Part shown: piece after piece, positions 13,748-64,000 of the stretch
Numbering within the stretch: position 1 is the stretch's first letter
Layout: each line of letters opens with the position of its first letter
Source: Lachnospiraceae bacterium
GTDB lineage: Bacteria > Bacillota > Clostridia > Lachnospirales > Lachnospiraceae
DNA length: 64,000 nt
Assembly (NCBI GenBank): GCA_017938315.1
Contig: JAGBBV010000031.1
Span: 1-64,000 of the forward strand
Direction of reading: 5' to 3'
The notes under the pieces: model-generated
What the model saw: only the letters and a program-made list of their open reading frames with translations
Told to the model about the DNA's origin: nothing
Database searches by the model: none
Made by a program: the position numbers and the translations under genes

Positions 13748-16700
13748 TCAATCTTTTTTCACATCCCAGACAATTTTTATGTTTTCCTCACCATATTTAT
13801 CACACAGTATTTTCTGTAAGCTTTCATCTGCATTTACACTGCGGTTGGGAGGAAGTTTCTTCATTACTTTTTCTGCTTCAATGTAAATAATCACGCTGTC
13901 TGTTCCGTCTGACCCGGCAAGTGTTCCTAAGAGTTCCTCAATATTTTGTTCATAATCCTCCATATTGGAAAACTTAACCCAAAGTTTCTTCGGAATTTCA
14001 TCAAACGCGGTAATCTTCTCGCAAATCAGTTTACCGTCCCTATCTTCCTCCAAAGACACCCTGCCTCTGACAAAGACTTTATTGTCTTCCACAAGCTTCG
14101 CACTGTTTTTTTCATAGTCTCTGGGGAACACAATGACTTCCACCGTCCCCAAAAGGTCCTCCACCTGTAAAAATGCCATAATCTTGTCATTTTTCGTGTA
14201 TTTTATTTTTTTGTCTGCAATAAGACCACCGACAACCGCAGTAGCATTATCCTTTACTACCGTTTCACCAGTTTCTTCATCTAATGCAAAATCCACTGTG
14301 GTATTGGTAATTCCTTTTTTCCAAAGGTCTTCCCACTCTTCCATAGGATGACCGCTGATGTAGACGCCCAATACCTCTTTTTCAAAAGCAAGCATCATCT
14401 CTTTGGAATATTCTCCCACATCAGGAAGCTTCACGTCATATTCTTCCTTCTGATCTTCAGATACAATATCAAAAAGGCTCATCTGCCCTGCCATATTGTT
14501 TTTCTTATCATGAACAATATGATCCATAATCTGAATATAAGCACTCATAAACTGCTTGCGTGTTCCCGGAAGGGAATCAAAAGCACCGGCCTTGATAAAG
14601 TTTTCAATGGCCTTTTTGTTTACATCCTTATCTGCAACCCTGGTGATAAAGTCCTTCAGATTGGTAAATTCTCCCCGTTCATTACGCTCCGAAACCACTG
14701 CCTCAATCACCGGTCTTCCCACACTCTTAATGGCTGTGAGGGAATAAATAATGGCATTATCCTTTACGGAAAATCCACTTTCCCCCTGATTGATATCCGG
14801 AGGTAAAATCTTAATTCCCATGTTACGGCAGGTCATAATGTACTCCGCCACCTTAGAGGAATTATCTATCACGGAAGTCATCAGTGCCGCCATAAACTCT
14901 ACGGGGTAATAATATTTCAAATACGCCGTCTGGTATGCCACCACTGCATAGCATGCCGCATGTGATTTATTGAAGGCATACTTCGCAAAATCCATCATGT
15001 CATCATAAATCTGGGAGGCAACCGCTTCAGAAATACCTGCTGCCGCACATCCGGGCACACCTTCCTCCTCATTGCCATATACAAAGTTGGCGCGCTCCTT
15101 TTCCATTACCGACTGTTTCTTCTTACTCATGGCACGGCGCACCAAATCACTTCGTCCAAGGGTATAGCCACCAAGATCACGGACAATCTGCATTACCTGT
15201 TCCTGATACACAATACAGCCGTAAGTAGGGGCTAAAATAGGCTCAAGTTGAGGACAGGAATAAACAATCGGTCCCGAACTGTTTTTCCCCTTAATGTACT
15301 TCGGAATAAAATCCATAGGGCCGGGGCGGTACAGGGATACTCCTGCAATAATGTCTTCCAGATTCTCCGGCTTTAACTCCTTCATGAAGTTTTTCATACC
15401 GCCGCTTTCCAGCTGGAATACGCCATCCGTCTTTCCTGTTCCGATGGATGCAAGAACCTTTTTATCATCATAGTCAATATTGTCAATATCAATATGCACG
15501 CCTTTACTTTTTTCTATCATGGCAACTGCATCGCGGATTACGGTAAGGGTACGAAGGCCCAAAAAGTCCATTTTAAGAAGACCAAGTTCTTCAATGGTTG
15601 TCATGGTAAACTGCGTGGTGATGGAACCATCGGAGCCTCTGGATAAGGGCACCAATTCTTCTGCGGGTCTGGAACAGATAACGACACCTGCCGCATGCAT
15701 GGATGTATGTCTGGGCAAGCCTTCTAACCTCTGACTCATATCGATTAATTCTTTTACCTGAGGGTCTGTTTCGTACATTTTACGAAGCTCAGGATTAATC
15801 TGCAAAGCCCTCTCAATGGTAATATTAAGTTCATTGGGAATCATCTTGGCAAGGGAATCTACATAAGCATAGGGCAAATCCATCACACGTCCTACGTCCC
15901 TGATAACACCCTTCGCTGCCAAAGTACCGAAAGTTACAATCTGCACTACCTTTTCGGCACCGTATTTACGCCCCACATAATCAATGACTTCCTGCCTCCG
16001 CTCGAAGCAGAAGTCAATATCAATATCCGGCATGGACACACGTTCCGGATTCAAGAAACGTTCAAACAGTAAACTGTATTTAATGGGATCAATATTCGTA
16101 ATTTTTAGTGTATATGCAACAATACTTCCCGCCGCAGAGCCTCTTCCCGGTCCTACCATGATCCCGTTTTGCTTGGCATAATTAATAAAGTCCCAAACAA
16201 TCAGGAAGTAATCCACATATCCCATATTTTTAATAACATCTAATTCATAATCAAGACGCTCTTTTAATGTAAGCCCTGTATCTCCCGCAGGTGCATTTTC
16301 ATCTTCTCCGTAACGCTCATGTAGGCCGTCATAGCAAAGTTTATTCAAATAAGTCCATGAATCATAGCCTTCCGGCACTTCAAAATGAGGGAGCTTGGTT
16401 ACGCCGAATTCAATCTCTACATTACAGCGCTCCGCAATCCTCTGTGTATTTTCCACTGCCTCCCATGCATAAGGAAACAGTCCTTTCATTTCTTCTTCGC
16501 TCTTTACATAATACTGGCCGCCTTCATAGCGCATTCTGTCTTCGTCCGCCAGTTTCTTTCCTGTCTGCAGGCAAAGCAGAATATCGTGAGGCTTCACGTC
16601 ATCCGCATAAGTATAGTGAACGTCATTGGTAGCCACAAGAGGAATATTTAATTCCTTGCTCATCTGCAAAAGAGCAGTATTTACCATTTTTTGTTCCGGC

Positions 16701-17239
16701 ATTCCATGGTCCTGCAGTTCCAGAAAATAATTATCCTCACCAAAGCAATCTCTGTACTTTAACGCCGCCTTCTTTGCCTCATCAAAAAGTCCTTTTTGAA
16801 TATACCTTTGTACTTCTCCGGCAAGACAGGCAGAAAGGGCAATAATTCCCTCATGGAATTCTCTTAACACGTCCATATCCACACGGGGTTTATAGTAATA
16901 GCCCTCGGTAAAACCGCGGCTTACAATCTTCATCAGATTATCGTAACCGGTATTATTTTCTGCAAGTAAAACAAGGTGGTAATACCTGTCCTCACCACCG
17001 GTCAGTTCCTTGTCAAAACGGGAATTTGGCGCTACGTAAACCTCACATCCAAGAATTGGTCTGATTCCTTCCGCCTTACAGGTCTTATAAAAGTCAATCA
17101 CACCGTACATAACTCCATGGTCTGTAATCGCTGCACTGTCCATGCCCAGCTCTTTGACGCGTTTTACATATTCTTTTATTTTATTAGAGCCGTCCAAAAG
17201 ACTGTACTCTGTATGGACATGAAGATGTGCAAATGCCAT
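13748..17239 (-). CDS. dnaE: DNA polymerase III subunit alpha, DnaE1 type
   Basis: Replicative polymerase of the C family. Domains in order: PHP (starts FAHLHVHTEYSLLDGS, then ITDHGVMYGVI), palm with catalytic motifs GPGRGSAAGSIVAY and PDIDIDFCFERR, fingers/thumb, tandem HhH (about 830-900), and a C-terminal OB fold with TEVIVFPRDYEKN-like sequence (about 990-1080). 1163 residues. The ATG at 17239 has GGGAGG. Clostridia normally also carry PolC, so this is probably the DnaE partner. It heads the dnaE-pfkA operon. Confidence 0.96.
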   Translation of the reverse strand: MAFAHLHVHTEYSLLDGSNKIKEYVKRVKELGMDSAAITDHGVMYGVIDFYKTCKAEGIRPILGCEVYVAPNSRFDKELTGGEDRYYHLVLLAENNTGYDNLMKIVSRGFTEGYYYKPRVDMDVLREFHEGIIALSACLAGEVQRYIQKGLFDEAKKAALKYRDCFGEDNYFLELQDHGMPEQKMVNTALLQMSKELNIPLVATNDVHYTYADDVKPHDILLCLQTGKKLADEDRMRYEGGQYYVKSEEEMKGLFPYAWEAVENTQRIAERCNVEIEFGVTKLPHFEVPEGYDSWTYLNKLCYDGLHERYGEDENAPAGDTGLTLKERLDYELDVIKNMGYVDYFLIVWDFINYAKQNGIMVGPGRGSAAGSIVAYTLKITNIDPIKYSLLFERFLNPERVSMPDIDIDFCFERRQEVIDYVGRKYGAEKVVQIVTFGTLAAKGVIRDVGRVMDLPYAYVDSLAKMIPNELNITIERALQINPELRKMYETDPQVKELIDMSQRLEGLPRHTSMHAAGVVICSRPAEELVPLSRGSDGSITTQFTMTTIEELGLLKMDFLGLRTLTVIRDAVAMIEKSKGVHIDIDNIDYDDKKVLASIGTGKTDGVFQLESGGMKNFMKELKPENLEDIIAGVSLYRPGPMDFIPKYIKGKNSSGPIVYSCPQLEPILAPTYGCIVYQEQVMQIVRDLGGYTLGRSDLVRRAMSKKKQSVMEKERANFVYGNEEEGVPGCAAAGISEAVASQIYDDMMDFAKYAFNKSHAACYAVVAYQTAYLKYYYPVEFMAALMTSVIDNSSKVAEYIMTCRNMGIKILPPDINQGESGFSVKDNAIIYSLTAIKSVGRPVIEAVVSERNERGEFTNLKDFITRVADKDVNKKAIENFIKAGAFDSLPGTRKQFMSAYIQIMDHIVHDKKNNMAGQMSLFDIVSEDQKEEYDVKLPDVGEYSKEMMLAFEKEVLGVYISGHPMEEWEDLWKKGITNTTVDFALDEETGETVVKDNATAVVGGLIADKKIKYTKNDKIMAFLQVEDLLGTVEVIVFPRDYEKNSAKLVEDNKVFVRGRVSLEEDRDGKLICEKITAFDEIPKKLWVKFSNMEDYEQNIEELLGTLAGSDGTDSVIIYIEAEKVMKKLPPNRSVNADESLQKILCDKYGEENIKIVWDVKKD

Positions 17240-17297
17240 GATTGCCTCCCGTTTTCGTTGTTTCTTTCCACTGAAAAAACTTCTTTTTTATTGTAGC

Positions 17298-17337
17298 AAA
17301 AAAGAAATGTCTTGGAAAGTCCCTGACATTTCTTTTT
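17298..17337 (-). terminator. Terminator after the DUF3021 gene
   Basis: A stem of at least 11 bp (AAAGAAATGTC/GACATTTCTTT) followed by a run of T on the minus strand, directly after the DUF3021 stop. The T tract merges into TTGCTACAAT, which could serve as the -10 region of the dnaE promoter. Confidence 0.7.
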
Positions 17338-17341
17338 GTGA

Positions 17342-17761
17342 CTATCTCTTCTCCTGATACTCTGCTAACCGCTCATTCATCAATTCAGCTTCCTTCATTA
17401 CACTCTTCCATGTAACCACAGACACAAACAAATAGATAATTGCTATCAGAACCAGCATTCCGATTACCTGCGGCAAGTTATCAGCATAAAACCACTCAAA
17501 CCAAAGTCCACACACCACCACAATCACATTCACCATGAAATAATGAATCACACATCTGATCTTCATACTGTTTTTAGTGATATCATCTGTGTACATTAGA
17601 GTACCTGCACTGGTAAGGAAGGATACCAGTAATATCTGCCACATAATATCTGTGTCAAAATTAAGCTCAGGGAAGAAAATCATACAGTATACTGCAACTC
17701 CCAAAACAACGCAGGTGGTTACTTTTGTAAACACATCTAACAATACTTTCAGTCTTGCCAT
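17342..17761 (-). CDS. DUF3021 four-helix membrane protein
   Basis: 139 residues with four membrane helices (about residues 12-32, 40-58, 70-92 and 98-118), a few charged residues at both ends and no catalytic motif. Single-domain LytTR regulators are commonly followed by a DUF3021 membrane protein that acts as their antagonist or sensor. Here it follows a LytTR gene by 12 bases and ends the ABC transporter operon. It is probably a membrane anti-regulator of that LytTR protein. Confidence 0.8.
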   Translation of the reverse strand: MARLKVLLDVFTKVTTCVVLGVAVYCMIFFPELNFDTDIMWQILLVSFLTSAGTLMYTDDITKNSMKIRCVIHYFMVNVIVVVCGLWFEWFYADNLPQVIGMLVLIAIIYLFVSVVTWKSVMKEAELMNERLAEYQEKR

Positions 17762-17773
17762 TTTTCTTCCTCC

Positions 17774-18211
17774 TTACAGTCCTAATTTTTCTTTCAAAAC
17801 CGGCACATACTGCCTGGAAATAATCAGCTTTTCACCATTTTTCATGGTTGCTTCAAATCTGCCGTTAAATGCCGGGCTTAAAGATTTCACCTTTGACAAA
17901 TTTAAAATAACAGACTTGGATACCCTAAGGAAATCTGTATCTTGAAAGCGTTCTTCCAACTCATACAATTTCAATTTCGTTTCATAAACTTCTTTATCCA
18001 AATACAAAAACACCTTATTATCCACAGCCTCAAAATAATAAATCTCTTTAGGTGTCACCTGCACAATATCCGTTCCTTTGGTAGCCGTTAGTTTTTCCTG
18101 TCCCGCCTTCAGGGCATATACCAGTTTTAGTAAATGTTCATCCATCTGTTTACAGCGGATAATAATTTCATCCTCTTCCCCGTCTATGGGGTCCACAATT
18201 GTAATTTTCAT
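17774..18211 (-). CDS. LytTR DNA-binding regulator without receiver domain
   Basis: 145 residues from the ATG at 18211, which has AAAGGTG (overlapping the permease stop). An upstream extension of the frame has no ribosome site. The N-terminal third is a short beta-rich region. The LytTR domain (about 45-140) has EIYYFEAVDNKVFLYL, FLRVSKSVILNLSKV and the ending pattern ISRQYVPVLKEKL. With no receiver domain it is expected to be controlled by the adjacent DUF3021 protein. Likely target: its own ABC operon (inferred). Confidence 0.88.
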   Translation of the reverse strand: MKITIVDPIDGEEDEIIIRCKQMDEHLLKLVYALKAGQEKLTATKGTDIVQVTPKEIYYFEAVDNKVFLYLDKEVYETKLKLYELEERFQDTDFLRVSKSVILNLSKVKSLSPAFNGRFEATMKNGEKLIISRQYVPVLKEKLGL

Positions 18212-18221
18212 TCTTACACCT

Positions 18222-19136
18222 TTATCTGTCACGAATCTTTCTCCGTTTGCTGATGACCGTTGCCACCACAATTGCTATTATACCATAAAGTGTCAAAATA
18301 AGAATCTGCTTTTCCAAAGTTATTTGCACATCCCCGTTCCACAAGACAATTCCCAATTCCTTTGCAAACACTTCACATACTATATCCGGCAATCCCTCAA
18401 AGGTTACTTCCATGGCATCTTTTGTTAAAACTTCCCGCATCATGGAAGCTCCGTGAAGGACGGGCAAACATTTTAATACCTTTACAATGTTTTCTGAAAG
18501 CATAGATACCGGCAGATAAATACCCCCCAGGAAACCTACCAATGTACCTACCACTGTAAGCATTCCTCCCCATGCACTTTCACTGTGGATAAATAATGCC
18601 AACAGATATCCTACCGCTGCATAAACAAATGCATTCAGCATAATCATGAAAAGCACCTTGACAAAAGCATCCATAGACAGTAGCGGATTCCCCTGTGCTA
18701 CCATGTATACCTCTCCCACTAACAAGGTCAAAAAGCTCATGCCGCTACCGATTGCCCATGCAGCCAAAATATAGCCCAACGCTATTTTAATCCGCTTTAC
18801 GGGCGCTACATAAAAACATGCCAGCTGGCCTTTTACCTCGTCGCGGATCATGGTCTGCATCACTGTCAGTGAAACGGTAACCGTATTTACTGCCAAAATT
18901 CCTGCCAGGGTCCACATCTGTATTAAGTATCCGGCATTCTTCTCGTCCGTCAGTGCATCCCTTTCTCCGCCATATTCTGAAAGAATCCACAGCACTTCGT
19001 CAGTATTCATTTTCCCCAAAAATACCACCATCAAAAGAAGTATGATAAGCATAGAAAGCACAGAGAAAAATACTGCACCATAATCTCTTAAAAACACAAG
19101 CACATTTCTTTTAAACAAATAATAAATTTCTTTCAT
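18222..19136 (-). CDS. ABC-2 type transporter permease
   Basis: 304 residues with six predicted membrane helices: one near residues 20-40, then five between about 85 and 290, with a large outer loop after helix 1. It has the ABC-2 family signature around GGIYLPVSMLSENI and LPVLHGASMMRE. It lies one base from the ATPase gene and forms an exporter with it. The substrate could be a lipid, drug or peptide; nothing in the sequence decides. Confidence 0.88.
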   Translation of the reverse strand: MKEIYYLFKRNVLVFLRDYGAVFFSVLSMLIILLLMVVFLGKMNTDEVLWILSEYGGERDALTDEKNAGYLIQMWTLAGILAVNTVTVSLTVMQTMIRDEVKGQLACFYVAPVKRIKIALGYILAAWAIGSGMSFLTLLVGEVYMVAQGNPLLSMDAFVKVLFMIMLNAFVYAAVGYLLALFIHSESAWGGMLTVVGTLVGFLGGIYLPVSMLSENIVKVLKCLPVLHGASMMREVLTKDAMEVTFEGLPDIVCEVFAKELGIVLWNGDVQITLEKQILILTLYGIIAIVVATVISKRRKIRDR

Positions 19137-53180: not shown

Positions 53181-54281
53181 TTATTTTAAAGTGATGCTGT
53201 TATTCAGCACTGACGTGCTGTACAAAAACAGCACATCCTGATTTTCAAATGTCACATAATTCCCAATATAGGCACTGGGGAGATATCTGATATCGATTAA
53301 TGTGGTTTTTCTATATCCTTCTGCCAAAAGGGGCACCATACTTCTGCTGAAGGAATCTCCGAATACCACCAATTCCTTCTCTGATACCGCACCCGGATTT
53401 TCAATGGTAGCCAGGGAAATGTTTCCTCCCAGAAACATCTCATAGGCATCTCTGCCATATGCCTTACTTTCATCATAAAGAGGAATTTCCACGTTATTTT
53501 CATAATCATAAACAATACATTCGTCTAAAATGCCATTGGAACAATAACTTATTTCATCGGGTTTTGTCATAAGTGCCGCCTGCCCGGCATAGACACCATA
53601 AAACGGAACGTCTAAGGTCTTTACTCTATATTCTCCCGAAAGAAAGACACCCATCTCTTTTCCTATATAGGCAGCCGTTTCTGTGATTTCTTCCTGTTTC
53701 CAATGAGTATCTGTTCTATAATAATCAGAAAGTTGCAGCTTGTCTTCTATCCTGATAGGAGTCAGAAAATCTGCACAGCTGTACGTTTTCTCCAAAAAAG
53801 CACTATAATCCATTGATAAATACGTCTTGTCAGCCAGATAATAGCTTTTATCAGGAATTACTGACATATAGACGCTTACTTCTTTTTCTTCTAAATGTTT
53901 TTCATAAATATTCCGGAAAATGGAAGCTGCCCTTTCTACAGACGCCTCATCCATCGGATATTCCATGGCACATAGATACCCGTCCTTAACATAGATATCA
54001 TGGTTATCCTTCTTTTGCATGATATGCATCGAAAAATTAGCCTTACATGCCCGTAGTAAGTCCCGAAAGGGAAATTGATCCGTCACATATTCTTCCATTT
54101 GTGCCGCATACGTCCCCGTCACCATGCTCTTCCATGAAAACATCGGTTTTTGTGCAAGGAGCCGCCTTTCACTAAGGGAATATTCCCCGGCAGGTTTCAA
54201 AAAGCATGCTGCGACGATTATGATATAAGTCACACCAACTATTGCTATCATCCACTTTTTTTGTTTTGTACTCTTTTCCAT
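53181..54281 (-). CDS. DHHW-family (AlgX/AlgJ-like) surface polysaccharide modification protein
   Basis: 366 residues. One N-terminal membrane helix (about 10-28) is followed by an extracytoplasmic SGNH-like domain. It has YSLSERRLLAQKP and the YVTDQFPFRD motif, the DTHWK motif that names the family, and GDSFSRSMVP as the nucleophile-serine block. It sits 11 bases behind an MBOAT gene. In alginate and cellulose systems such pairs move acetyl groups from the membrane protein to an exported polymer. The acceptor here is unknown. Confidence 0.88.
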   Translation of the reverse strand: MEKSTKQKKWMIAIVGVTYIIIVAACFLKPAGEYSLSERRLLAQKPMFSWKSMVTGTYAAQMEEYVTDQFPFRDLLRACKANFSMHIMQKKDNHDIYVKDGYLCAMEYPMDEASVERAASIFRNIYEKHLEEKEVSVYMSVIPDKSYYLADKTYLSMDYSAFLEKTYSCADFLTPIRIEDKLQLSDYYRTDTHWKQEEITETAAYIGKEMGVFLSGEYRVKTLDVPFYGVYAGQAALMTKPDEISYCSNGILDECIVYDYENNVEIPLYDESKAYGRDAYEMFLGGNISLATIENPGAVSEKELVVFGDSFSRSMVPLLAEGYRKTTLIDIRYLPSAYIGNYVTFENQDVLFLYSTSVLNNSITLK

Positions 54282-54292
54282 ATCCTCTCCTC

Positions 54293-55675
54293 CTAAAATC
54301 TGAAATAAAGGAACGGATTAAAAGAGCCGTCCACCAGATATGCCGTTGACAAAATGAGCAGCAATAAAACACCGGCTATTTTTAGAATCTGCCATCTGCC
54401 TGCAAATTTTTTAGCCACAGGTAAGCAGCCTATCATCGACACTAAAAAAGTAACACCATAGCTTTTCAGATAATAAAGTGCTTCTCCTGACACAACCGGA
54501 ATGCCTCCCATGCCAAACATACATCTGATATCCAGCCATGCCTCCTTCATATTTGACGCATTAAATATGATAAAACTAATAAGAAGTAAAAAAATCACAT
54601 ATAGATGCTTTATCACTTTTGTTTTGTCAAGTATCTTTAGCAGCCATCTTTTTTCTATCATCAAAATAACGCCAAAGAAGAGCCCCCAAAGCACAAAATT
54701 CCATGACGCACCATGCCATAATCCGGTAAACATCCACACTATGAAGATATTACGGATCCACTTTACCTGCGATACCCGGTTTCCCCCAAGGGGAATATAT
54801 AAGTAATCTCTAAACCAGGTTCCCAAGGACATATGCCATCTTCTCCAAAATTCCGTAATACTGCCGGAGATATATGGATAATTAAAATTTTCCGGAAAGG
54901 AAAATCCCAAAATTCTTCCCAGTCCAATGGCCATATCGCTATAGCCGGAAAAGTCAAAATAAATGTGCAGCGTAAACGCTGCCGCATACATCCAATAATA
55001 GAGCACAGATTTATCTCCCGATGCCCTAAAGATCTCACACAATGCCCCCAGTTCATTGGCAAGAAGCACTTTCTTTGAAAGTCCTATAATAAAACGACAG
55101 ATACCGCTTTCCAGCATAGCTACTGTGCTTTTTCTGTTTTCAAGTTGCCCGCTTATATCCGTATAACGGACAATTGGGCCTGCGATTAATTGGGGGAACA
55201 TGGCAATATAGGTTGCCAAAGATATGATATTCCGCTGTGCTTTTGTTTCCCTTCGATAAATATCCACCAGATAACTGATTATTTGAAAGGTATAGAAGCT
55301 GATTCCAATAGGCAATACAATATGCAGTAACGGGATTTCAGTTCCCGTTACTGCATTAAAACTTCTTATAAAAAAGTCAGTATATTTAAAATAAATAAAC
55401 AATCCTGTGAAAATTACAATTGAACCGGAAAGTACTGCCTTCGGCGTTATAGCCTTCCATTTTCTTTCCATGCTTTGCTCCAACAAAATTCCGGATACGT
55501 ATCCCACCAGAATTGAAAAGAGCATAAGCAAAATATAAACCGGTTCTCCCCATGCGTAAAAAGCAAGGCTTGCTACTAACAATACACCGTTACGACCCTT
55601 AGCAGGCATAAGAAAATAAGCAAGTAACACACATGGCAAAAAATAATACAAAAAAGGTATACTCGAAAAAACCAT
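54293..55675 (-). CDS. MBOAT-family membrane O-acyltransferase (AlgI-like)
   Basis: 460 residues with about 11 membrane helices. It has the MBOAT signature region with RRWHMSLGTWFRDYLYIPLGG and the invariant catalytic histidine in GLWHGASWNF. It passes an acyl group across the membrane for the DHHW partner. It is translated 10 bases after a DUF4358 gene. Confidence 0.94.
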   Translation of the reverse strand: MVFSSIPFLYYFLPCVLLAYFLMPAKGRNGVLLVASLAFYAWGEPVYILLMLFSILVGYVSGILLEQSMERKWKAITPKAVLSGSIVIFTGLFIYFKYTDFFIRSFNAVTGTEIPLLHIVLPIGISFYTFQIISYLVDIYRRETKAQRNIISLATYIAMFPQLIAGPIVRYTDISGQLENRKSTVAMLESGICRFIIGLSKKVLLANELGALCEIFRASGDKSVLYYWMYAAAFTLHIYFDFSGYSDMAIGLGRILGFSFPENFNYPYISGSITEFWRRWHMSLGTWFRDYLYIPLGGNRVSQVKWIRNIFIVWMFTGLWHGASWNFVLWGLFFGVILMIEKRWLLKILDKTKVIKHLYVIFLLLISFIIFNASNMKEAWLDIRCMFGMGGIPVVSGEALYYLKSYGVTFLVSMIGCLPVAKKFAGRWQILKIAGVLLLLILSTAYLVDGSFNPFLYFRF

Positions 55676-56359: not shown

Positions 56360-59140
56360 TTAAAGAATTTCTTCCACTTTTGCAATTAATTTCTTCAAAC
56401 TGTCAATGTATGTTCCATACTCTGCCAGAAGAAACGCTTCGTCTTTTTCTTTTCCGGCCATTTCGTGTTGCAGGGAAAGTTTGGAAAAATTAACAGCGCC
56501 AATATTTAGTGAATTTCCTTTTAATGCATGGGCAATCATCCCATAGTCATCCCAGTTTCTGCTTGCAAAGTGTTCTTCCAGCTGTGGTATATATGTATTA
56601 CTTTGCTTGCAAAATACCCCCAGCACTTCTTTATACAGTTCTTGGGAATTCATGCAATAAGAAAGTCCCACTTCGCGGTCAACAAAAGTCACATCTTTAT
56701 TATCCGTTTCCGTTTCCTCACCTTCACTTTGCTCTCTTACCAAATATGCCCCTTCTCCTGAATTCGCATCCTGCAATAATCCTTCAGGTACATATTTCTT
56801 TAGTAGTTTTTCCAGTTTATTTACTTCTATGGGTTTTGCCAAATAATCATCAAATCCGTAATTCAAATACATCTCTCTGCTACCCGCAATTGCGTTTGCA
56901 GTAAGTGCGATAATTGTTGTCTCATTGTTTGGATTGGTCTGATCTTCACGTAAGAAGCGGAGCGTCTCAACGCCATCCATTTCCGGCATCATATGGTCCA
57001 TTAAAATCACATGATAGGCCTTGTGCTTCGTAAGTTCCAAACATTCCTTACCGCTCATCGCCGTATCTGTCTGCACCTTTGTCCGACGCAGCAATTCCTT
57101 GATAACAGCCAAATTCATTGCATTGTCATCAACCACCAGCACTGTAGCATCCGGTGCCATAAACTGTTGCTCTTCCATAACAATTTTTTCTTTTTCTTCC
57201 TGCAAAACCTTCCAGTCCCCAATAGGGGTTTTGTCCACCACTTTCTGCGGTATGGTAACCGTAAATACAGATCCTTCCCCATACACACTTTCAACCATGA
57301 TATCTCCGAGCATCAAGTCCACAAGCTGCTTGGTTATACTAAGCCCCAGACCGGTACCTTCAATGTTATGGTTTTTGTTTAATTCTAATCGCTTAAATCC
57401 TGCAAATAATTTTGTCAGGTCTTCTCTCCTTACTCCAATCCCCGTATCCTTCACCGCAAAGCAAAGCATCACATTCTCGGAATCAATCCATTTAAATGTA
57501 GCTTTTAATGAGACGGTTCCTTCCTTCGTATATTTCACTGCATTAGAAAGAAGGTTTGTAATAATTTGTTTAATGCGAAGCTGATCTCCATAAAAAACAG
57601 ATGGAAACTTCGGATCAATATCCACTTCTATTTCTATGGGTTTTCCTGCGGCTCTTGCATTTAATAAAAGAATTTCATCCTTCATCAAGGATTTAAAATC
57701 ATATTCGCTGTTTACCAATTCAAGCTGTCCTGATTCTATCTTGGAAAAATCCAAGATATCATTCACCAGTTCCAGCAGCATATTGCTGGCACGCTTCACA
57801 TTGTTTGCATATTCCGCCACTGCTTCATTCTGATTCTCACGCAATATCATCTCGTTCATACCGATTACTGCATTAATAGGCGTACGGATTTCATGGGACA
57901 TATTGGCAAGAAACTTTGATTGTGCTTCTTTTGCCATAATTGCCTGTTGTTTTTTCTTTTCAGACTCAAATAGGTCCTGTCCTGTCTTAATAATCGCCAT
58001 AATCAGCAAAAACAATAATCCGGTTCCCAAAACCGTACCTAAGGATGTTGCACTTTCTAAGTAATAAAGAAGCATTTCCATAACAGCAGCAATCAGAAGT
58101 CCCAAAACACCGATTCCTACAAATAAATATTTTTTAGCCTGCCCCCTAACCACATCAACCGCAATCGTTCCTATCAGGCAGACGATTGAGTAGGCAAGCC
58201 CTGCATGTATCCATGTTACCATTTCTACAAATTCTACCAGTTCCAATACTTGCAGTAATGTACCACCAAATAAAATAATTGCAGAATACACAAATGATAC
58301 TAAATAAAATTTTTCGTATCTTTCCTCTTGAATATCGTTAATATACAGAAGTAATGGAAAAGGTATTAACATCAGGCACCAGTATGTCGCACTTGATAAT
58401 ACCGATATATTTCTAAAAATAATTTGGCGGAATGCACTTTCTGACAGCATCCACAATGCACATAAAAAGATTGTCCACGCCAGGTAAATCAGCGCAAGTC
58501 TCTTTTTATATACAAAGTGCAAAATGGCGCATGTAAAAACACAGAACACGCTGAGCATCAAAAGGAAAATTGCAATTACCGTACGTATTCCCGAATCCAT
58601 AATGAAAAACGCCCATATACTTGCCCAGTCACCGATATAGCATTCCCGCATATCGCCCGTATATTTTGAATCACTCACAAAGGAATAGGTCAGTTCTTTT
58701 CCTGCATCCGCTTCTGAAAGTTCTACAAAAATATATCTCATGGCGCTATTGGTCCCGAAAGGCCTTGAATTTTCAGTAGAATAACTTACCCTGAGTTCAT
58801 CCCCGACGTAAATATCTACATCCTGCCATATAACCCAGAAGCATAAATTTTCCCCGTTCTCTATTTTTTCAGGTAATTTTGCCTTTAATGTCACAACTTC
58901 CCCATACTCTGCAGGCACCGTGCCCGGTACTGATATGGGTATCCGCTCTCCCGTTTCTTTTATCTGTTCCCATTCTGTTTCAAACACACGGCAATCTGTC
59001 TTTATGGCATCCCTTTCGTCTGGGTATACAAAGCCTCCAATGATTAAAAATGCAAAAATCAAAAAAGTGGCAACACCAAAGAAAGCTTGGGCTGCCACCG
59101 TGTACTTATGTAAATTTCTTTTCTTACCTTTTGTTCTCAT
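56360..59140 (-). CDS. Hybrid histidine kinase with 7TM sensor, receiver and HPt domains
   Basis: 926 residues. Membrane helix (about 17-38), an extracytoplasmic beta-rich domain (about 45-180) like the jelly-roll sensors of 7TMR-DISM proteins, then seven helices (about 185-390) and a short coiled linker. The HisKA domain has the phospho-His in SHEIRTP (about 417). The ATPase has N-box ITNLLSNAVKY, DTGIGV and GTGLGLSI. The receiver has the acceptor D in ILMDHMMPEMDG (about 716), and the HPt has His in AHALKGNSLNIG (about 872). All phosphorelay residues are present. No output regulator is adjacent. Ligand unknown; polysaccharide or lipid signals suit the sensor type. Confidence 0.92.
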   Translation of the reverse strand: MRTKGKKRNLHKYTVAAQAFFGVATFLIFAFLIIGGFVYPDERDAIKTDCRVFETEWEQIKETGERIPISVPGTVPAEYGEVVTLKAKLPEKIENGENLCFWVIWQDVDIYVGDELRVSYSTENSRPFGTNSAMRYIFVELSEADAGKELTYSFVSDSKYTGDMRECYIGDWASIWAFFIMDSGIRTVIAIFLLMLSVFCVFTCAILHFVYKKRLALIYLAWTIFLCALWMLSESAFRQIIFRNISVLSSATYWCLMLIPFPLLLYINDIQEERYEKFYLVSFVYSAIILFGGTLLQVLELVEFVEMVTWIHAGLAYSIVCLIGTIAVDVVRGQAKKYLFVGIGVLGLLIAAVMEMLLYYLESATSLGTVLGTGLLFLLIMAIIKTGQDLFESEKKKQQAIMAKEAQSKFLANMSHEIRTPINAVIGMNEMILRENQNEAVAEYANNVKRASNMLLELVNDILDFSKIESGQLELVNSEYDFKSLMKDEILLLNARAAGKPIEIEVDIDPKFPSVFYGDQLRIKQIITNLLSNAVKYTKEGTVSLKATFKWIDSENVMLCFAVKDTGIGVRREDLTKLFAGFKRLELNKNHNIEGTGLGLSITKQLVDLMLGDIMVESVYGEGSVFTVTIPQKVVDKTPIGDWKVLQEEKEKIVMEEQQFMAPDATVLVVDDNAMNLAVIKELLRRTKVQTDTAMSGKECLELTKHKAYHVILMDHMMPEMDGVETLRFLREDQTNPNNETTIIALTANAIAGSREMYLNYGFDDYLAKPIEVNKLEKLLKKYVPEGLLQDANSGEGAYLVREQSEGEETETDNKDVTFVDREVGLSYCMNSQELYKEVLGVFCKQSNTYIPQLEEHFASRNWDDYGMIAHALKGNSLNIGAVNFSKLSLQHEMAGKEKDEAFLLAEYGTYIDSLKKLIAKVEEIL

Positions 59141-59238: not shown

Positions 59239-59934
59239 TTATTTTTTCTGCTTTTTAGCAGTCTGCCAAATACCTGTCAGCATAAAAACAATGCCAAGTA
59301 TTGCTACGCAGGTCCATAATAGTTCAGATACACTTTCTTTCATCATAAGCGCACAAGCGTTAAGCAGTAATCCGCTAATTAACAGCGGTGACATTTCCCT
59401 GGGGTTTTCCGGTGCAATTCCTGTACGCTGCTCTTCTAATTTATAAATAATGTTTTTAGTCTTCGCTATCACATTGACAAGCACGATAATAAGAAGAAGT
59501 ATCACAGCCGCTGCCACAACCGCTGCAGAAACATCACCAACAAAGGCTGCCATACACTCTATGAAGAAGCAGATGAGTTCTAAAACAGTTACCGCTTTAA
59601 ACATTTTAAGGATCTTGGTGTAATGTTCGATTTTTGATTCTACATCCGTATATAGTTCAAAGGCTCCTTTGCTTGCCTCTTTGCGCAGAATAATCCAATA
59701 TCCCCAATTCTGGAGAATTTCCACTTCCATCTCACTCATCAAATCCCGGTAATCATCGCTTACTTTACCAAACTTCTCACCAAAATCTATCTGATAAGTG
59801 TATTTTCCCGGTTCCGTTTTTTCAAAATTATAAAATCCCGCATAAAAGCTCTTTAGTGCCCATCCCTGCACACTCATTTCATTTAACCATTTTGTTTCTT
59901 CATCTTTGTCAAAATATAAGTGAAATTTAATCAT
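59239..59934 (-). CDS. DUF2812 membrane protein
   Basis: 231 residues. The N-terminal domain of about 110 residues carries the DUF2812 pattern (FDKDEETKWLNEMSVQGW and FYNFEKTEPGKYTYQID are typical). It is followed by about four membrane helices (about 115-135, 140-160, 185-200 and 205-222). It overlaps the PadR gene by 8 bases, the usual pairing in Firmicutes. Function unknown; probably the regulated membrane partner of the PadR protein. Confidence 0.85.
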   Translation of the reverse strand: MIKFHLYFDKDEETKWLNEMSVQGWALKSFYAGFYNFEKTEPGKYTYQIDFGEKFGKVSDDYRDLMSEMEVEILQNWGYWIILRKEASKGAFELYTDVESKIEHYTKILKMFKAVTVLELICFFIECMAAFVGDVSAAVVAAAVILLLIIVLVNVIAKTKNIIYKLEEQRTGIAPENPREMSPLLISGLLLNACALMMKESVSELLWTCVAILGIVFMLTGIWQTAKKQKK

Positions 59935-60253
59935 TGTTCTTATCCCCCATCATCTTTCCGTTTCTTACCAGTTCCTCTAAGCGGTTAAGCTCTTTCTCAA
60001 AAGCCTGCGTTCCCGTTTTTGTGATCACATATTCCTTTTTCTTTCTGGACTCTGCATCCTGACTGTAAACTTTAATCCAGCCCCTTTTTTCTAAAGTCTG
60101 CAATGCCCCGTACAAGGTTCCTGCTCCTAAAGTCACGCGTCCACCTGTAACTTCCTCTATCTCCTGGGTAATTCCATATCCGTGATTGGGCTTTCTCAGT
60201 GCTAACAAAATATAGTAAAACGCTTCTGTCAGCGGTGTATTTAATTCTATCAT
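59927..60253 (-). CDS. PadR-family transcriptional regulator
   Basis: 108 residues. Winged helix with LTEAFYYILLALRKPNHGYGI, of which the HGYGI signature matters, then VTLGAGTLYGALQTLEKRGWI as recognition helix and wing, and a short C-terminal dimer helix. PadR-s1/LtrA-like subfamily 2 size. It begins behind AAAGGAGA, downstream of a promoter loaded with inverted and direct repeats (60267-60334), so it very likely represses its own operon. Confidence 0.92.
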   Translation of the reverse strand: MIELNTPLTEAFYYILLALRKPNHGYGITQEIEEVTGGRVTLGAGTLYGALQTLEKRGWIKVYSQDAESRKKKEYVITKTGTQAFEKELNRLEELVRNGKMMGDKNND

Positions 60254-60336: not shown

Positions 60337-61557
60337 CTATTCTTCAAAAAATTTTATATCCTTCGAAAAGTAGGTTGAGGATATATAAATTTTATCAAAC
60401 AAATTTTTAATTGTAGGGTTTTCGCAGAACTTTTTTACAGGAATATCCTGCCTGTAAAATAACAGGCATCCTGCTGTTTCATTCAAATGTGTAATCAATA
60501 ATGAGCACAATGGTAATCGCATGCTACTTCTTTGAAAGTGAAGTAAATCCATCTCCACATCTTTTACAAATTCCTGCAAACTTACATGTGGTGCATAACG
60601 AAGTTTGCCCTGCCATTCATTTTCCAAATTTGTTTTATCTGCTTCCGCTATCCCCAATTCATTAGCTTTACACTCATGTGGTAGCGGACCTGCACCATGC
60701 CTAGTCACATAACTTCGGCTCACATAAACCACTTCATCCATTTCAGCACCTATCTGCTTCAGAAAATTACACGGGTTTGTAAGACCGGTCCGGGATGCTG
60801 TTACATGGGGACTATATTCTACATTTTCCGAATCCAAAAGTAGCCCCTGACCGTTTTCAAAAATAATACAATCAAAGTCATTTACAAATTTTTTTATATC
60901 GTGAATTACATTTATGTATTTTATATTTGTAAGTATTTCCTCTGCTACGTTTGCAAGAACATCAGTACTTTTCAACATTTCATCATACTCTCCCAAGTCC
61001 TTTCGTCGTAATCCCAATTCCTTCAATCGCACCGGCAAGTACTTATCGCGAATCTCCTTCAACCGCTCTACCAGTTCATCCTTGGTAATGTTTATTATTT
61101 CACCTATCTTTATGCCAAATCCGGATTCATTTCTACACTGTGCTTCATATATTCCCATACCACAGCTTCCATGTCTGTCTGATCCCCTCTTCTTTTCGAT
61201 TGCCATATTCAGAAGAACATCATCTATAATCGTAATCGAAGTATTATAATCAGAAATTATTTGGGGAATAAATCCGGCTACATGATAAAAGGCAGATAAT
61301 TCCTCTCCCAATTTATATAAATCAGGAAAATAAGTATCTGCCCAAAAAGTGACCGCATGACGAAAAGAACCGGAAGAAAGTTCATGAAACACAACACGCT
61401 TATCCGGCAAATCAACTGTGTGTCCTGACTGGGCACCACCGTTATGCCGAATCACCAACACGTTTTCGTGCTGCGAGGAAAGAAAATCCACCGCCATTCC
61501 TTTCCCCTCATCACCAAATCCTTTTCCTACTACTGCACAAATATATGGTCTACTCAA
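60337..61557 (-). CDS. Divergent adenylosuccinate-synthetase (PurA)-like enzyme
   Basis: 406 residues. It aligns with PurA at GFGDEGKGMAVDF (catalytic Asp about 16), RHNGGAQSGHTV (catalytic His about 46), FENGQGLLLD, SPHVTASRTG and YVTRHGAGPLPHE. The canonical aspartate loop (TTGRxRR-GW) is replaced by a region around NEWQGKLRYAPHV, and the C-terminus is shortened and altered. The enzyme family joins Asp to a purine nucleotide with GTP; here the GTP/IMP-site chemistry may be kept with a changed substrate. Phage PurZ proteins are one known example of such a change. Its ATG overlaps the VWA gene stop by 4 bases. A housekeeping purA role is unlikely. Confidence 0.82.
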   Translation of the reverse strand: MSRPYICAVVGKGFGDEGKGMAVDFLSSQHENVLVIRHNGGAQSGHTVDLPDKRVVFHELSSGSFRHAVTFWADTYFPDLYKLGEELSAFYHVAGFIPQIISDYNTSITIIDDVLLNMAIEKKRGSDRHGSCGMGIYEAQCRNESGFGIKIGEIINITKDELVERLKEIRDKYLPVRLKELGLRRKDLGEYDEMLKSTDVLANVAEEILTNIKYINVIHDIKKFVNDFDCIIFENGQGLLLDSENVEYSPHVTASRTGLTNPCNFLKQIGAEMDEVVYVSRSYVTRHGAGPLPHECKANELGIAEADKTNLENEWQGKLRYAPHVSLQEFVKDVEMDLLHFQRSSMRLPLCSLLITHLNETAGCLLFYRQDIPVKKFCENPTIKNLFDKIYISSTYFSKDIKFFEE

Positions 61558-62450
61558 AAGAAAAACCCTTTCTTTTTATTTTTAATTACCAGATTTTTTA
61601 TTGCATTCTTTACAACCGGCTGTGCAAGCTCTGACCACTGTCCTACAACCTTGCTCTCTTCCATCCCGTCAACTAATTGCATGGTACTAATAATAATCTC
61701 GGGAAGCATACTAACTGCTGTCGGGGGAATGCATAAAACCCGTCCCGGAAGAATCTTCGCAAAATTGGAGGGCACACCAAAGCCATTTGGTCGGATATGT
61801 ATGTGAAAAATCTCAAACTTCTCACCAGCCATTTTAGCAAGCTTCTCAGAACTGATACTCTCCGACTCATCATCAAAAATTCGCTTAATATCTTCCGATG
61901 CCAACTTCGAATGACAGTCCGCATCACCAATCGTAAACAGAAATCCTTTTTTACCATGTTTCTCAAACGCATCCGCCTGAACATGCTTCGCCGCAAAATA
62001 CCACAATAATTCAAAGTCCTCCGGCATATCTCCTCCGGCTGACTCTAGCCATAAGCTAAGCAACTGTTCTGCAATACGGATGTCTGATTCAAATTGTGTT
62101 ACTTGCAGTGGTGCCAAATCAGTCACATCACCAATCGCCGCAAACAGCATCTGCGGATCTTTTACCGGATTAGTGGAATATATTTTCATCATGGTTTCAT
62201 TCAATCCGTTTTTGGCTATTTCTGCAGACAAATACCCCATAGACCCTGTCACATCCAGCCCAATCATAATTGGTGTAGAGTCAGGATGTTCCTCAGAATC
62301 TCTGGATTCTCTTACATTAATAAACTTAGGATTAAATCTTTCTTCCATCTGGTTTGCTCTGAAAATCTGTGAAGCTGTTGATGTTTCTGTTATCTTCGAA
62401 CTATTTTTTAATTTTTTCCAATCTGCACTTGTATAACTACCTCTTCCCAT
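61554..62450 (-). CDS. VWA-domain protein with MIDAS motif
   Basis: 298 residues. After about 60 polar residues comes a von Willebrand factor A domain: IGLDVTGSMG (D-x-T-G-S metal site, Asp about 66), then GGDMPED and FLFTIGDADCH as later metal/strand elements. There is no signal peptide or membrane helix, so it is probably cytoplasmic. The N-terminal start GRGSYTSADW is unusual. It begins behind GGAGG, 26 bases after the zinc-ribbon gene, and ends by overlapping the PurA-like gene. VWA proteins often pair with AAA+ ATPases or serve as assembly scaffolds; none is visible here. Confidence 0.8.
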   Translation of the reverse strand: MGRGSYTSADWKKLKNSSKITETSTASQIFRANQMEERFNPKFINVRESRDSEEHPDSTPIMIGLDVTGSMGYLSAEIAKNGLNETMMKIYSTNPVKDPQMLFAAIGDVTDLAPLQVTQFESDIRIAEQLLSLWLESAGGDMPEDFELLWYFAAKHVQADAFEKHGKKGFLFTIGDADCHSKLASEDIKRIFDDESESISSEKLAKMAGEKFEIFHIHIRPNGFGVPSNFAKILPGRVLCIPPTAVSMLPEIIISTMQLVDGMEESKVVGQWSELAQPVVKNAIKNLVIKNKKKGFFF

Positions 62451-62476
62451 TTCCTTATTCTCCTCCTTTTATCTTC

Positions 62477-63370
62477 CTACATAGTAAACTTTGTAAAATG
62501 TCTTCCCCCTAATTCCTCTTCTATCACTTTATCCCACATCTCGAAGTCTTCATATGCATTTTCCCTGGGCTTACTCTCTAGAAATTCGATAAGCGGATGC
62601 GGTGCATCCCCATATTTTTCCCCCAACAAAGCCGTTGCTACCATTCTAATATCTTTTATGTCCTGTTTTGCTCCATTTATCTGTTCACCGGCTTTATGCC
62701 AATTGCCATATAATGCTGCTTCATGTGTCTTCGTATTAATGTAAACTGCCTCCCGCGTAATACCACCATGGCACTTATCGCAAAAGGCCAGTACGCATGC
62801 AATATTTTCTAATCTGGATATTATCCACTCTACATGTTTCGCCGGTAAGGTGCCAAACATAGCAACCGGATGTAAATTCTCATCCTTGGAATATACCAGC
62901 ATAACTCTTTCATCCGCAAGCTCATACTTCCCTGCAAAGTCCGGAAAACTTCTGCGCAGTCCCTTCATATCAGCCTGTGGGAATGTCACTTCTGACAGTT
63001 GTCTTACTGCCATATCCGCCATTTGACTCTTATCTTTTGGGAAAATATATATTACATTCCTACGGGCAGCATACATACTGATTCCTTCTTCTATACTCTT
63101 GTATATGTACTGTATGGTAATATCTGTCCCATTTTTGTCGGTCAATACTTCTGTTTCATAATCACTCCACAAACATTCCAAATATCCTTCTGCACTCTCA
63201 TCATCTGCTGCTGCGCTTAAATATTCAAGGATTCTCTTTCGGAACATTTTGTATTCTTGTAATTCATGATCATTAAAAAATTGCCTCGAACCACAATATG
63301 GGCATTTCAAATCACCAATCCGGCTAACTGCCATTTCCCCGGCACAATTTGCACACTTGAAATTAACCAA
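62477..63370 (-). CDS. Zinc-ribbon protein, unknown function
   Basis: 297 residues, starting with TTG at 63370 behind GGGGGG. The N-terminal zinc ribbon has C6-x2-C9 and C23-x2-C26 (FKCANCAGEM then KCPYCGS). A long alpha/beta region contains RRNVIYIFPKDKSQMADMAV. A second C-x2-C (FCDKCHGG, about 195) may bind another metal with nearby H residues. The C-terminus is acidic and helical (EDFEMWDKVIEEEL). I do not recognise the family. First gene of the zinc ribbon > VWA > PurA-like operon. Confidence 0.72.
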   Translation of the reverse strand: MVNFKCANCAGEMAVSRIGDLKCPYCGSRQFFNDHELQEYKMFRKRILEYLSAAADDESAEGYLECLWSDYETEVLTDKNGTDITIQYIYKSIEEGISMYAARRNVIYIFPKDKSQMADMAVRQLSEVTFPQADMKGLRRSFPDFAGKYELADERVMLVYSKDENLHPVAMFGTLPAKHVEWIISRLENIACVLAFCDKCHGGITREAVYINTKTHEAALYGNWHKAGEQINGAKQDIKDIRMVATALLGEKYGDAPHPLIEFLESKPRENAYEDFEMWDKVIEEELGGRHFTKFTM

Positions 63371-63401
63371 TATCCATCCCCCCTATTTTACATATAGCGC
63401 C

Positions 63402-63431
63402 ATTATATCACACTTTCTGCACAAGGACCAA
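63402..63431 (-). promoter_or_regulatory. Promoter of the zinc-ribbon/VWA/PurA-like operon
   Basis: -35 TTGGTC (63426-63431), 18-base spacer, -10 TATAAT (63402-63407), about 30 bases before the TTG start. Confidence 0.5.
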
Positions 63432-63440
63432 GATTTCTGC

Positions 63441-63797
63441 TTAATTATATTTGCAACCGCACACACCGCAATAGGCGCTATCTTTACGGATGTTTCTGTT
63501 TCCACACACACCGCATTCGTATTGTTCATTTTTAATCTCTATTTTCACATTCTTATGTTTTGCAAAAAATTTATCTATCTCATTATCCTGTCTGAGTTCC
63601 ACAAACAGAAGGCATGCAAAACCTCCCAACAATAATCCGCCTATTACAAACAGTATTTTGGCAAGTATAATAGCAATCCTACATTCACAAAAAGTATTTA
63701 GCCACAATAATATTCCCGGTATCAGGAGCATCATTGTTAAGCCCATACCGATTACTTTTCCCCCATAATGAATGGAATTAATTTTCTTTATTTTCAC
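63441..63797 (-). CDS. Small membrane protein with C-terminal zinc ribbon
   Basis: 118 residues from a GTG at 63797. Two membrane helices (about 15-35 and 40-66) precede a charged linker. The last 26 residues hold two C-x2-C pairs (CGVC and CGVC, separated by about 12), a treble-clef or ribbon. It overlaps the upstream partial gene by 20 bases in another frame, so translation may be coupled. The recurrent zinc ribbons suggest a functional link with the 62477 gene. Confidence 0.72.
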   Translation of the reverse strand: MKIKKINSIHYGGKVIGMGLTMMLLIPGILLWLNTFCECRIAIILAKILFVIGGLLLGGFACLLFVELRQDNEIDKFFAKHKNVKIEIKNEQYECGVCGNRNIRKDSAYCGVCGCKYN

Positions 63798-64000
63798 TAC
63801 TACACACCTTCATAATTCCGTTTAATGTTACAACTCCTAACGTCAGTTTAGCTGCCGGAGATGCCGGCGGAATAAACATGATTGATTTTATATTTTTGTT
63901 TTCTACTTTGCCTAAATTGGTGATACTGTAGGACTTCGGACTACTAAGTCCGAACATGCTGCCACCGACAAACTTGCCTGCTTTACTTTCAAATCCACCC
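63778..64000 (-). CDS. 3' part of an unknown gene running off the right edge
   Basis: The last 73 codons of a minus-strand frame, stopping at 63778-63780. It contains FVGGSMFGLSSPKSYSITNL and a proline/alanine stretch IMFIPPASPAAKLTLG, and has no membrane segment. The overlap with the membrane zinc-ribbon gene suggests they are one operon. The domain identity cannot be told from this fragment. Confidence 0.6.
   Translation of the reverse strand, partial: GGFESKAGKFVGGSMFGLSSPKSYSITNLGKVENKNIKSIMFIPPASPAAKLTLGVVTLNGIMKVCSSENKEN

Follow-up and report, generated by a model that had tools for sequence, protein, structure and literature searches.

The closest described relatives of the enzyme considered here are adenylosuccinate synthetase, PurA (PF00709), and the phage-borne PurZ/PurZ0 enzymes of the Z-genome phages. 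A 2026 survey counted 481 PF00709 proteins in viruses, with 147 phage sequences in the PurZ group, and its survey section states no roles for the viral proteins outside that group (PMC12884076). What might such proteins do? We analyzed a 64,000-nucleotide stretch of DNA (the window; positions 1 to 64,000 of contig JAGBBV010000031.1, assembly GCA_017938315.1, from a Lachnospiraceae bacterium) in which a divergent adenylosuccinate-synthetase homologue, PurAL, is encoded together with a von Willebrand factor A (VWA)-like protein and a zinc-ribbon pseudokinase (Table 1). PurAL and the VWA-like protein constitute a conserved module, one form of which adds a pseudokinase with either a zinc ribbon or a J domain, and the module is found in large phages, patchily in bacteria, and on plasmids. 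The neighborhoods of its relatives point to an enzyme system linked with NAD metabolism that has not been described before, and no paper on a PurAL/VWA module was found in the full-text literature searched, a body of text outside which most subscription journals lie. Judging from its residues and gene context, PurAL may activate a mononucleotide and couple it to a non-aspartate nucleophile, assisted by the VWA-like protein and the chaperone-like pseudokinase, in an NAD-linked conflict between phage and host, a reading to which we assign a probability of about 0.4.

Other described systems are reminiscent of this module in part. The TerY-P/Ter stress modules combine a VWA protein with a kinase-fold protein, as does the present module, in which the kinase-fold protein carries a zinc ribbon; unlike in those modules, the kinase here looks dead, a PurA-like enzyme is present, and no Ter partner was noticed, no dedicated search having been made. 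Nudix-type regulators together with vWA chaperones have been proposed in ADP-ribose systems (PMC9503650). These ADP-ribosylglycohydrolase (ARG)-centered systems share with the relatives of PurAL a neighborhood that has both a Nudix-type regulator and a vWA protein, and an NAD/ADP-ribose theme, but differ in that a PurA-like enzyme is found here and no ADP-ribosylglycohydrolase turned up, again with no dedicated search; the word adenylosuccinate is missing from the main text of that paper. The phage NadV, NadM and NadR proteins are described in the same paper, and genes of such phage NAD+ salvage (NadV with NadM or NadR; the NARP pathways) often adjoin the module in large phage contigs; PurAL itself corresponds to none of the enzymes in the salvage route that PMC9503650 describes.

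PurAL lies well above the PF00709 cut-off (120.6 against 27 bits), and it misses both the NCBIfam equivalog cut-offs for purA (TIGR00184, 90.4 against 395.55 bits; NF002223, 103.6 against 402) and the threshold of the PurZ model (NF038379, 28.6 against 300 bits). The AlphaFold2 model of the window protein has a pLDDT of 96.5 and a pTM of 0.94. Residues were tabulated in 86 aligned PurAL rows (74 viral, 12 cellular), with E. coli numbering transferred through a profile alignment. PurAL shares with PurA the fold family, the GDEGKG loop, Asp13 and Lys16 (each 85/86, with one gap), His41 and Gln224 (each 86/86), and Thr239 (85/86). Other positions differ: the TTGR motif of the aspartate loop is present in none of the 86 rows, the profile alignment having a gap there, Val273 is His in all of them, Asn38 is Gln in 82, and Lys331 is Cys or His in 83. 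A new loop carries N310 (86/86), Q316 (85/86) and R320 (85/86). The sequence-only reading of this DNA had claimed that the catalytic Asp and His are kept and the usual aspartate-binding loop is lost, and the alignment bears this out. Among 12 further PurAL sequences, His replaces Val273 in 12/12, TTGR is found in 0/12, and the G-D-x-G-K-G motif is seen in 11, the search pattern missing the twelfth; the N310/Q316/R320 loop is less well kept in some of them. A role of Arg303, in the aspartate loop, is given in PMC8342488, and Asp13 is called essential in PMC12884076.

Phylogenetic analysis of 58 rows, in which several long branches occur and the root is purely a matter of display, places PurAL in a single clade of 49 rows (support 99/94), apart from PurA (100/98) and from one PurZ. 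Taken with the residue changes, this makes PurAL what appears to be a third branch of the PurA family, its nucleophile side rebuilt. The bacterial copies closest to that of the window group as a clade among viral sequences, which suggests that they are of phage origin. PurAL forms its clade beside a second, canonical purA (546 bits) on another contig (C8) of the same genome, and it is not the housekeeping enzyme, as had been supposed. Could it still function as an adenylosuccinate synthetase and raise the supply of AMP, with neighbors that are incidental? The PurA fold and the retention of most catalytic residues would fit, but the absence of TTGR and the His at position 273 in every row, and the close pairing with the VWA gene, make this very improbable.

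How constant is that pairing? IMG/VR holds 350 stretches with a relative of the VWA-like protein and 326 with one of PurAL. Taking the 80 best from each set gave 159 viral loci, from which 34 duplicates (same first 150 VWA residues) and 6 loci without one of the genes were removed, and both genes are present in the remaining 119, with a median gap of 37 bp and the PurAL start less than 400 bp from the VWA end in 93. In the window, the two genes overlap by 4 bases (61554-61557), as first stated. Relatives of the VWA-like protein are found in 206 records of named phages (Mycobacterium 188, Rhizobium 10, Vibrio 6, two others), only 16 of which cover 80% of the query. Relatives of PurAL are found in 224 records, some of them perhaps other genes of the PurA family. 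The pair is present in Vibrio phage Va1 and Rhizobium phage RHph_TM30, and the trio in Mycobacterium phage Sebata (kinase-fold gp260, VWA-like gp261, PurA-like gp263). A viral pseudokinase query (from L065) gave no matches among named phages; the Sebata pseudokinase gave 191 records, 190 of them mycobacterial.

Phage PurAL proteins, such as those of Sebata (L222:5965-7293) and RHph_TM30 (L221:5983-7233), carry the label '2-aminooxy adenylosuccinate synthetase', which is the name of PHROG 1211. This PurZ label is doubtful because the catalytic Asp is kept and the PurZ change is missing, and it is likely a misannotation, to judge from the alignment. Membership of PurZ is rejected, with Asp13 kept in 85 of 86 rows and so low a score against NF038379, and PurZ, which had been offered as a precedent of changed substrate within the PurA fold, does not hold as one by mechanism, since the Asp that is Ser in PurZ is retained in PurAL; the gene partners differ too. 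The family, its frequency in phages, and the PHROG name would nevertheless accord with a PurZ-like role in which PurAL would supply phage DNA with a modified purine nucleotide. Against this stand the Ser of PurZ in place of Asp13 (GSTGKG in phiVC8; PMC12884076), the aspartate-contacting loop tip that two PurZ enzymes share (PMC8342488), where PurAL has no PurA-type aspartate loop, and the occurrence of the module in bacteria and on plasmids as well; a DNA-base precursor pathway is therefore unlikely.

In cellular genomes, a contig scan found 11 PurAL relatives, and a VWA-like gene adjoins all 11 (at L040 in pieces), while a zinc-ribbon gene was also matched at six. The pairing of PurAL with the VWA-like protein is thus conserved in viral and cellular loci alike. 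Distribution is patchy: a set of 60 genomes including the window's own contains good copies (42-43% identity) in two others and fragments in a further two; the VWA profile matches 11 of 295 genomes of the same order, counting the window's own genome and one weak match in a 2609-aa frame; and at the level of the phylum there is a match in 1 of 398, the window's own genome, so that a wide spread through the phylum is rejected. Ten loci were taken from nine other genomes of the order, of which nine have VWA-like and PurAL genes, the tenth being truncated at a contig end; in L239, the pseudokinase gene sits between the two. The trio is also found on plasmids of Agrobacterium, Acetobacter, Rhodococcus and Tsukamurella. 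Module fragments were seen in two genomes of the window's genus (L047:6722-7558, L048:6338-6710). Such patchiness, together with these fragments and with the Nudix-type regulators and vWA proteins of the proposed ARG systems (PMC9503650), is what a bacterial stress or anti-phage defense module might show, with the phage copies captured or competing. However, the five proteins of the locus (the fifth partial) have no match in PADLOC 2023 up to E 1, many relatives are in phages, and no nuclease-like or NADase-like effector was seen by eye among the 60 largest neighbor clusters, not all of which are annotated, so that a defense or stress role seems unlikely.

The partners of PurAL are less easily named. 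The VWA-like protein, a relative of phrog_2971, was first described as a VWA protein of the MIDAS (metal ion-dependent adhesion site) type, and the MIDAS-like motif D66-x-T68-x-S70 stands, as do D108 and the conserved D176, both invariant, but no Pfam family is matched up to E 1, and a PDB-profile search did not link the protein to a VWA domain. The first gene of the trio had been described as a zinc-ribbon protein, which it is, but it is more than that. A PDB search with a profile of 32 aligned first-gene proteins gave DnaJ (4.3e-7) and protein kinase (3.5e-5); single proteins matched DnaJ at 6.6e-6 and 1.3e-5, both slightly under the Pfam cut-off, and the Sebata protein matched kinase at 1.7e-9, above it. 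Inspected by eye, DFG is missing in 39/39 aligned rows and only a few have Asp at the HRD place; because of the missing DFG the protein is called a pseudokinase, and an active kinase is rejected. A CxxC zinc ribbon replaces the J domain in the window and most of its near relatives, as well as in a single viral protein (L141), and most viral homologues have a DnaJ-like domain where the zinc ribbon would be. No nucleic-acid-binding domain was recognized in the trio. Of the 119 viral loci, 43 have a pseudokinase gene, 36 have C3 in its stead, 40 have neither, and none has both. C3 is a different family of about 200-300 aa with a Met/Gly-rich tail, mostly directly before the VWA gene (for example, viral L097:7276-7989 and cellular L039:8180-8767), and a scan of two members gave no notable match in Pfam or PHROG. 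A third alternative was sought in 34 of the 40 loci with neither; 31 have an upstream open reading frame (ORF), and with a crude gene caller no family has more than two members.

What connects this module to NAD? When ORFs of 175 loci were clustered, with contig duplicates left in, the commonest neighbors after the module itself and C3 were families of NMNAT/NadM type and of NAMPT, in 20 loci each, one member of each family having been identified. Distances were examined in 50 whole viral contigs, picked by length and not at random; part of the tests used the 39 contigs with a tabulated PurAL position, and some positions (G751, G758, G760 and the ribonucleotide reductase (RNR) of G735) are approximate. 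Of the 22 contigs with PF04095 (NAMPT/NAPRT), 11 have it no more than 8 kb from PurAL (expected 1.81, P 1.8e-7), and 10 of these 11 cases remain after dereplication of PurAL at 60% identity; for PF01467 the figure is 11 of 21 (expected 2.74, P 1.4e-5). The controls, RNR (1/25, expected 1.91) and ThyX (1/8, expected 0.74), show no such proximity. A few NAD-related queries were run against the 26 cellular and plasmid loci that carry the module, and an NrtR or NrtR-like Nudix gene is nearby in seven, from four lineages (L239, the sister loci L039 and L041, and plasmids L223 of Agrobacterium, L224 of Acetobacter, L225 of Rhodococcus and L226 of Tsukamurella), and NAPRTase in three, from two lineages (L039, L041, L239). 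The clearest is L239, where NrtR (3.5e-17), NAPRTase (5.2e-56), a nicotinamidase-like gene (weak match, 1.7e-8, start unsure), PurAL, pseudokinase and VWA genes follow each other nearly without gaps. A HipA-like gene (Pfam 1.5e-8; L239:10728-11624) lies shortly behind the NrtR-NAPRTase-PurAL run. On the Agrobacterium plasmid NrtR (2.1e-15) is divergent from the trio, and an NrtR winged helix (5.6e-15) is at the same place on the Acetobacter plasmid, its gene being divided between two ORFs. In L041 (13780-17378) and L039 (17419-21089), the C3-type module is followed downstream by a row of NAPRTase, larB and larC, with NrtR close; a nickel-pincer (larB/larC) link was seen in these two sister loci only and was rejected as a general feature.

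How could these parts work together? We infer that the retained half-site of PurAL would bind a nucleoside 5'-monophosphate and phosphorylate its oxo group, and that the invariant His for Val273 and the N310/Q316/R320 loop in place of the aspartate loop would form a rebuilt nucleophile side. Since the nucleotide half is kept and the nucleophile side is changed, PurAL should join the activated mononucleotide to an amine other than aspartate. A J domain recruits Hsp70 and VWA domains bind peptides in a Mg-dependent manner; the VWA-like protein and the pseudokinase would probably present or mature a protein partner. Because NAD salvage genes often adjoin the phage copies, and the ADP-ribose-sensing regulator NrtR adjoins several cellular ones, the product may serve NAD+ or nucleotide maintenance in phage-host conflict. 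A far more specific proposal, and a long shot, is that PurAL acts on nicotinic acid mononucleotide (NaMN), nicotinamide mononucleotide (NMN) or NAD to give a nucleotide or cofactor that derives from NAD and has not been described, with a metal or protein target handled by the MIDAS protein and the J-domain or zinc-ribbon pseudokinase acting as maturation chaperone; if true, this would be a new branch of NAD chemistry for phages and bacteria in conflict. Phage genes labeled 'PurA-like' or '2-aminooxy adenylosuccinate synthetase' gain a constant partner and an NAD-salvage context, and their chemistry can be tested.

Several observations weigh against the NAD-linked reading or parts of it. The window itself is tied to NAD only through homology: neither an NrtR with winged helix nor an NAD enzyme was found within the stretches examined of the 17 loci nearest the window, some of which are clipped by contig ends, and its own genome (G000) has no NrtR_WHD match. 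Twelve of these 17 are one tree clade, and one (L034) has a 150-aa Nudix-like ORF (E 5.7e-6). In two of the seven Nudix genes (L225, and L226 with Nudix only) the winged helix is weak or missing, and in L039 and L041 the NrtR and NAPRTase genes are 3-6 kb away, beside larB/larC, to which they may belong. The distance tests took uniform placement as null, with phylogeny ignored and contigs not independent. The VWA label, based on the MIDAS-like motif and D108/D176 and not on a library match, is weaker than first stated. GTP as donor is unsure for the window PurAL, because the GTP-side motif S-x-G-P near the C-terminus (38/74 viral rows) is missing in all 12 cellular rows and its residue 333 is Asn (Asp in 65 rows, Asn in 21); the D333N change in E. 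coli PurA switches preference from GTP to XTP (xanthosine triphosphate). RNA ligases also show a mild enrichment, intermediate between the NAD genes and the controls, with 8 of 27 contigs having one no more than 8 kb from PurAL (expected 3.43, P 0.013), so that the link may be to a general counter-defense region. The same ligases, the gene annotated as polynucleotide kinase near the Sebata copy, and the chaperone-like partners could be viewed as signs that the trio conjugates a nucleotide to a macromolecule, protein or RNA, after RNA damage, but the enrichment is weaker than that of the NAD genes and the trio lacks a recognized nucleic-acid-binding domain, and RNA repair is improbable.

The genes of the window locus are ORFs as originally placed, all on the minus strand. 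The sequence-only reading, in which a modified purine nucleotide and a metal-dependent scaffold protein could form a stress, signaling or defense module, is partly supported; it did not foresee the many relatives in large phages or that the neighborhoods of several branches point to NAD salvage. Two outcomes that would have told against it, a genome with no other purA and a pair without conservation elsewhere, do not apply. The membrane zinc-ribbon protein and the next gene upstream, which it listed beside the trio, are not counted as module parts: neither has a relative in the other 15 loci.

Table 1. Genes of the module and its neighbors in the window
Feature	Position	Strand	Remarks
PurAL, divergent adenylosuccinate-synthetase homologue, predicted catalytic subunit	60337..61557	-	TTG start, 406 aa; PF00709 9.1e-35
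VWA-like (MIDAS motif) protein, phrog_2971 relative	61554..62450	-	298 aa
Zinc-ribbon pseudokinase (pK)	62477..63370	-	297 aa; family alignment, PDB-profile matches
Membrane zinc-ribbon protein, neighbor outside module	63441..63797	-	118 aa; no relative in other 15 loci
PadR-type regulator, downstream neighbor outside module	59927..60253	-	PF03551 5.7e-18

The contig extends to 125 kb, and the sequence past 64000 shows that the gene cut at the window end continues to contig position 64989 and is condensation/acyltransferase-like (Pfam 5.5e-11), with a TetR regulator behind it. The acyltransferase-like, TetR, PadR and DUF2812 genes are, like the membrane zinc-ribbon gene, without relatives in the other 15 loci and were rejected as module parts, PadR and TetR being also without relatives in the others of the 26 cellular and plasmid loci. 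Promoter-like sites for the trio are at chance level (24 against 23.8 expected). Three large genes, hybrid sensor kinase-like by eye, flank the module (window 56360-59140; L003:13860-16532 and 16536-18959). Further off, at 53181-55675 of the window, there is a membrane O-acyltransferase-like gene with an AlgJ-like neighbor, by eye perhaps involved in polysaccharide acetylation.

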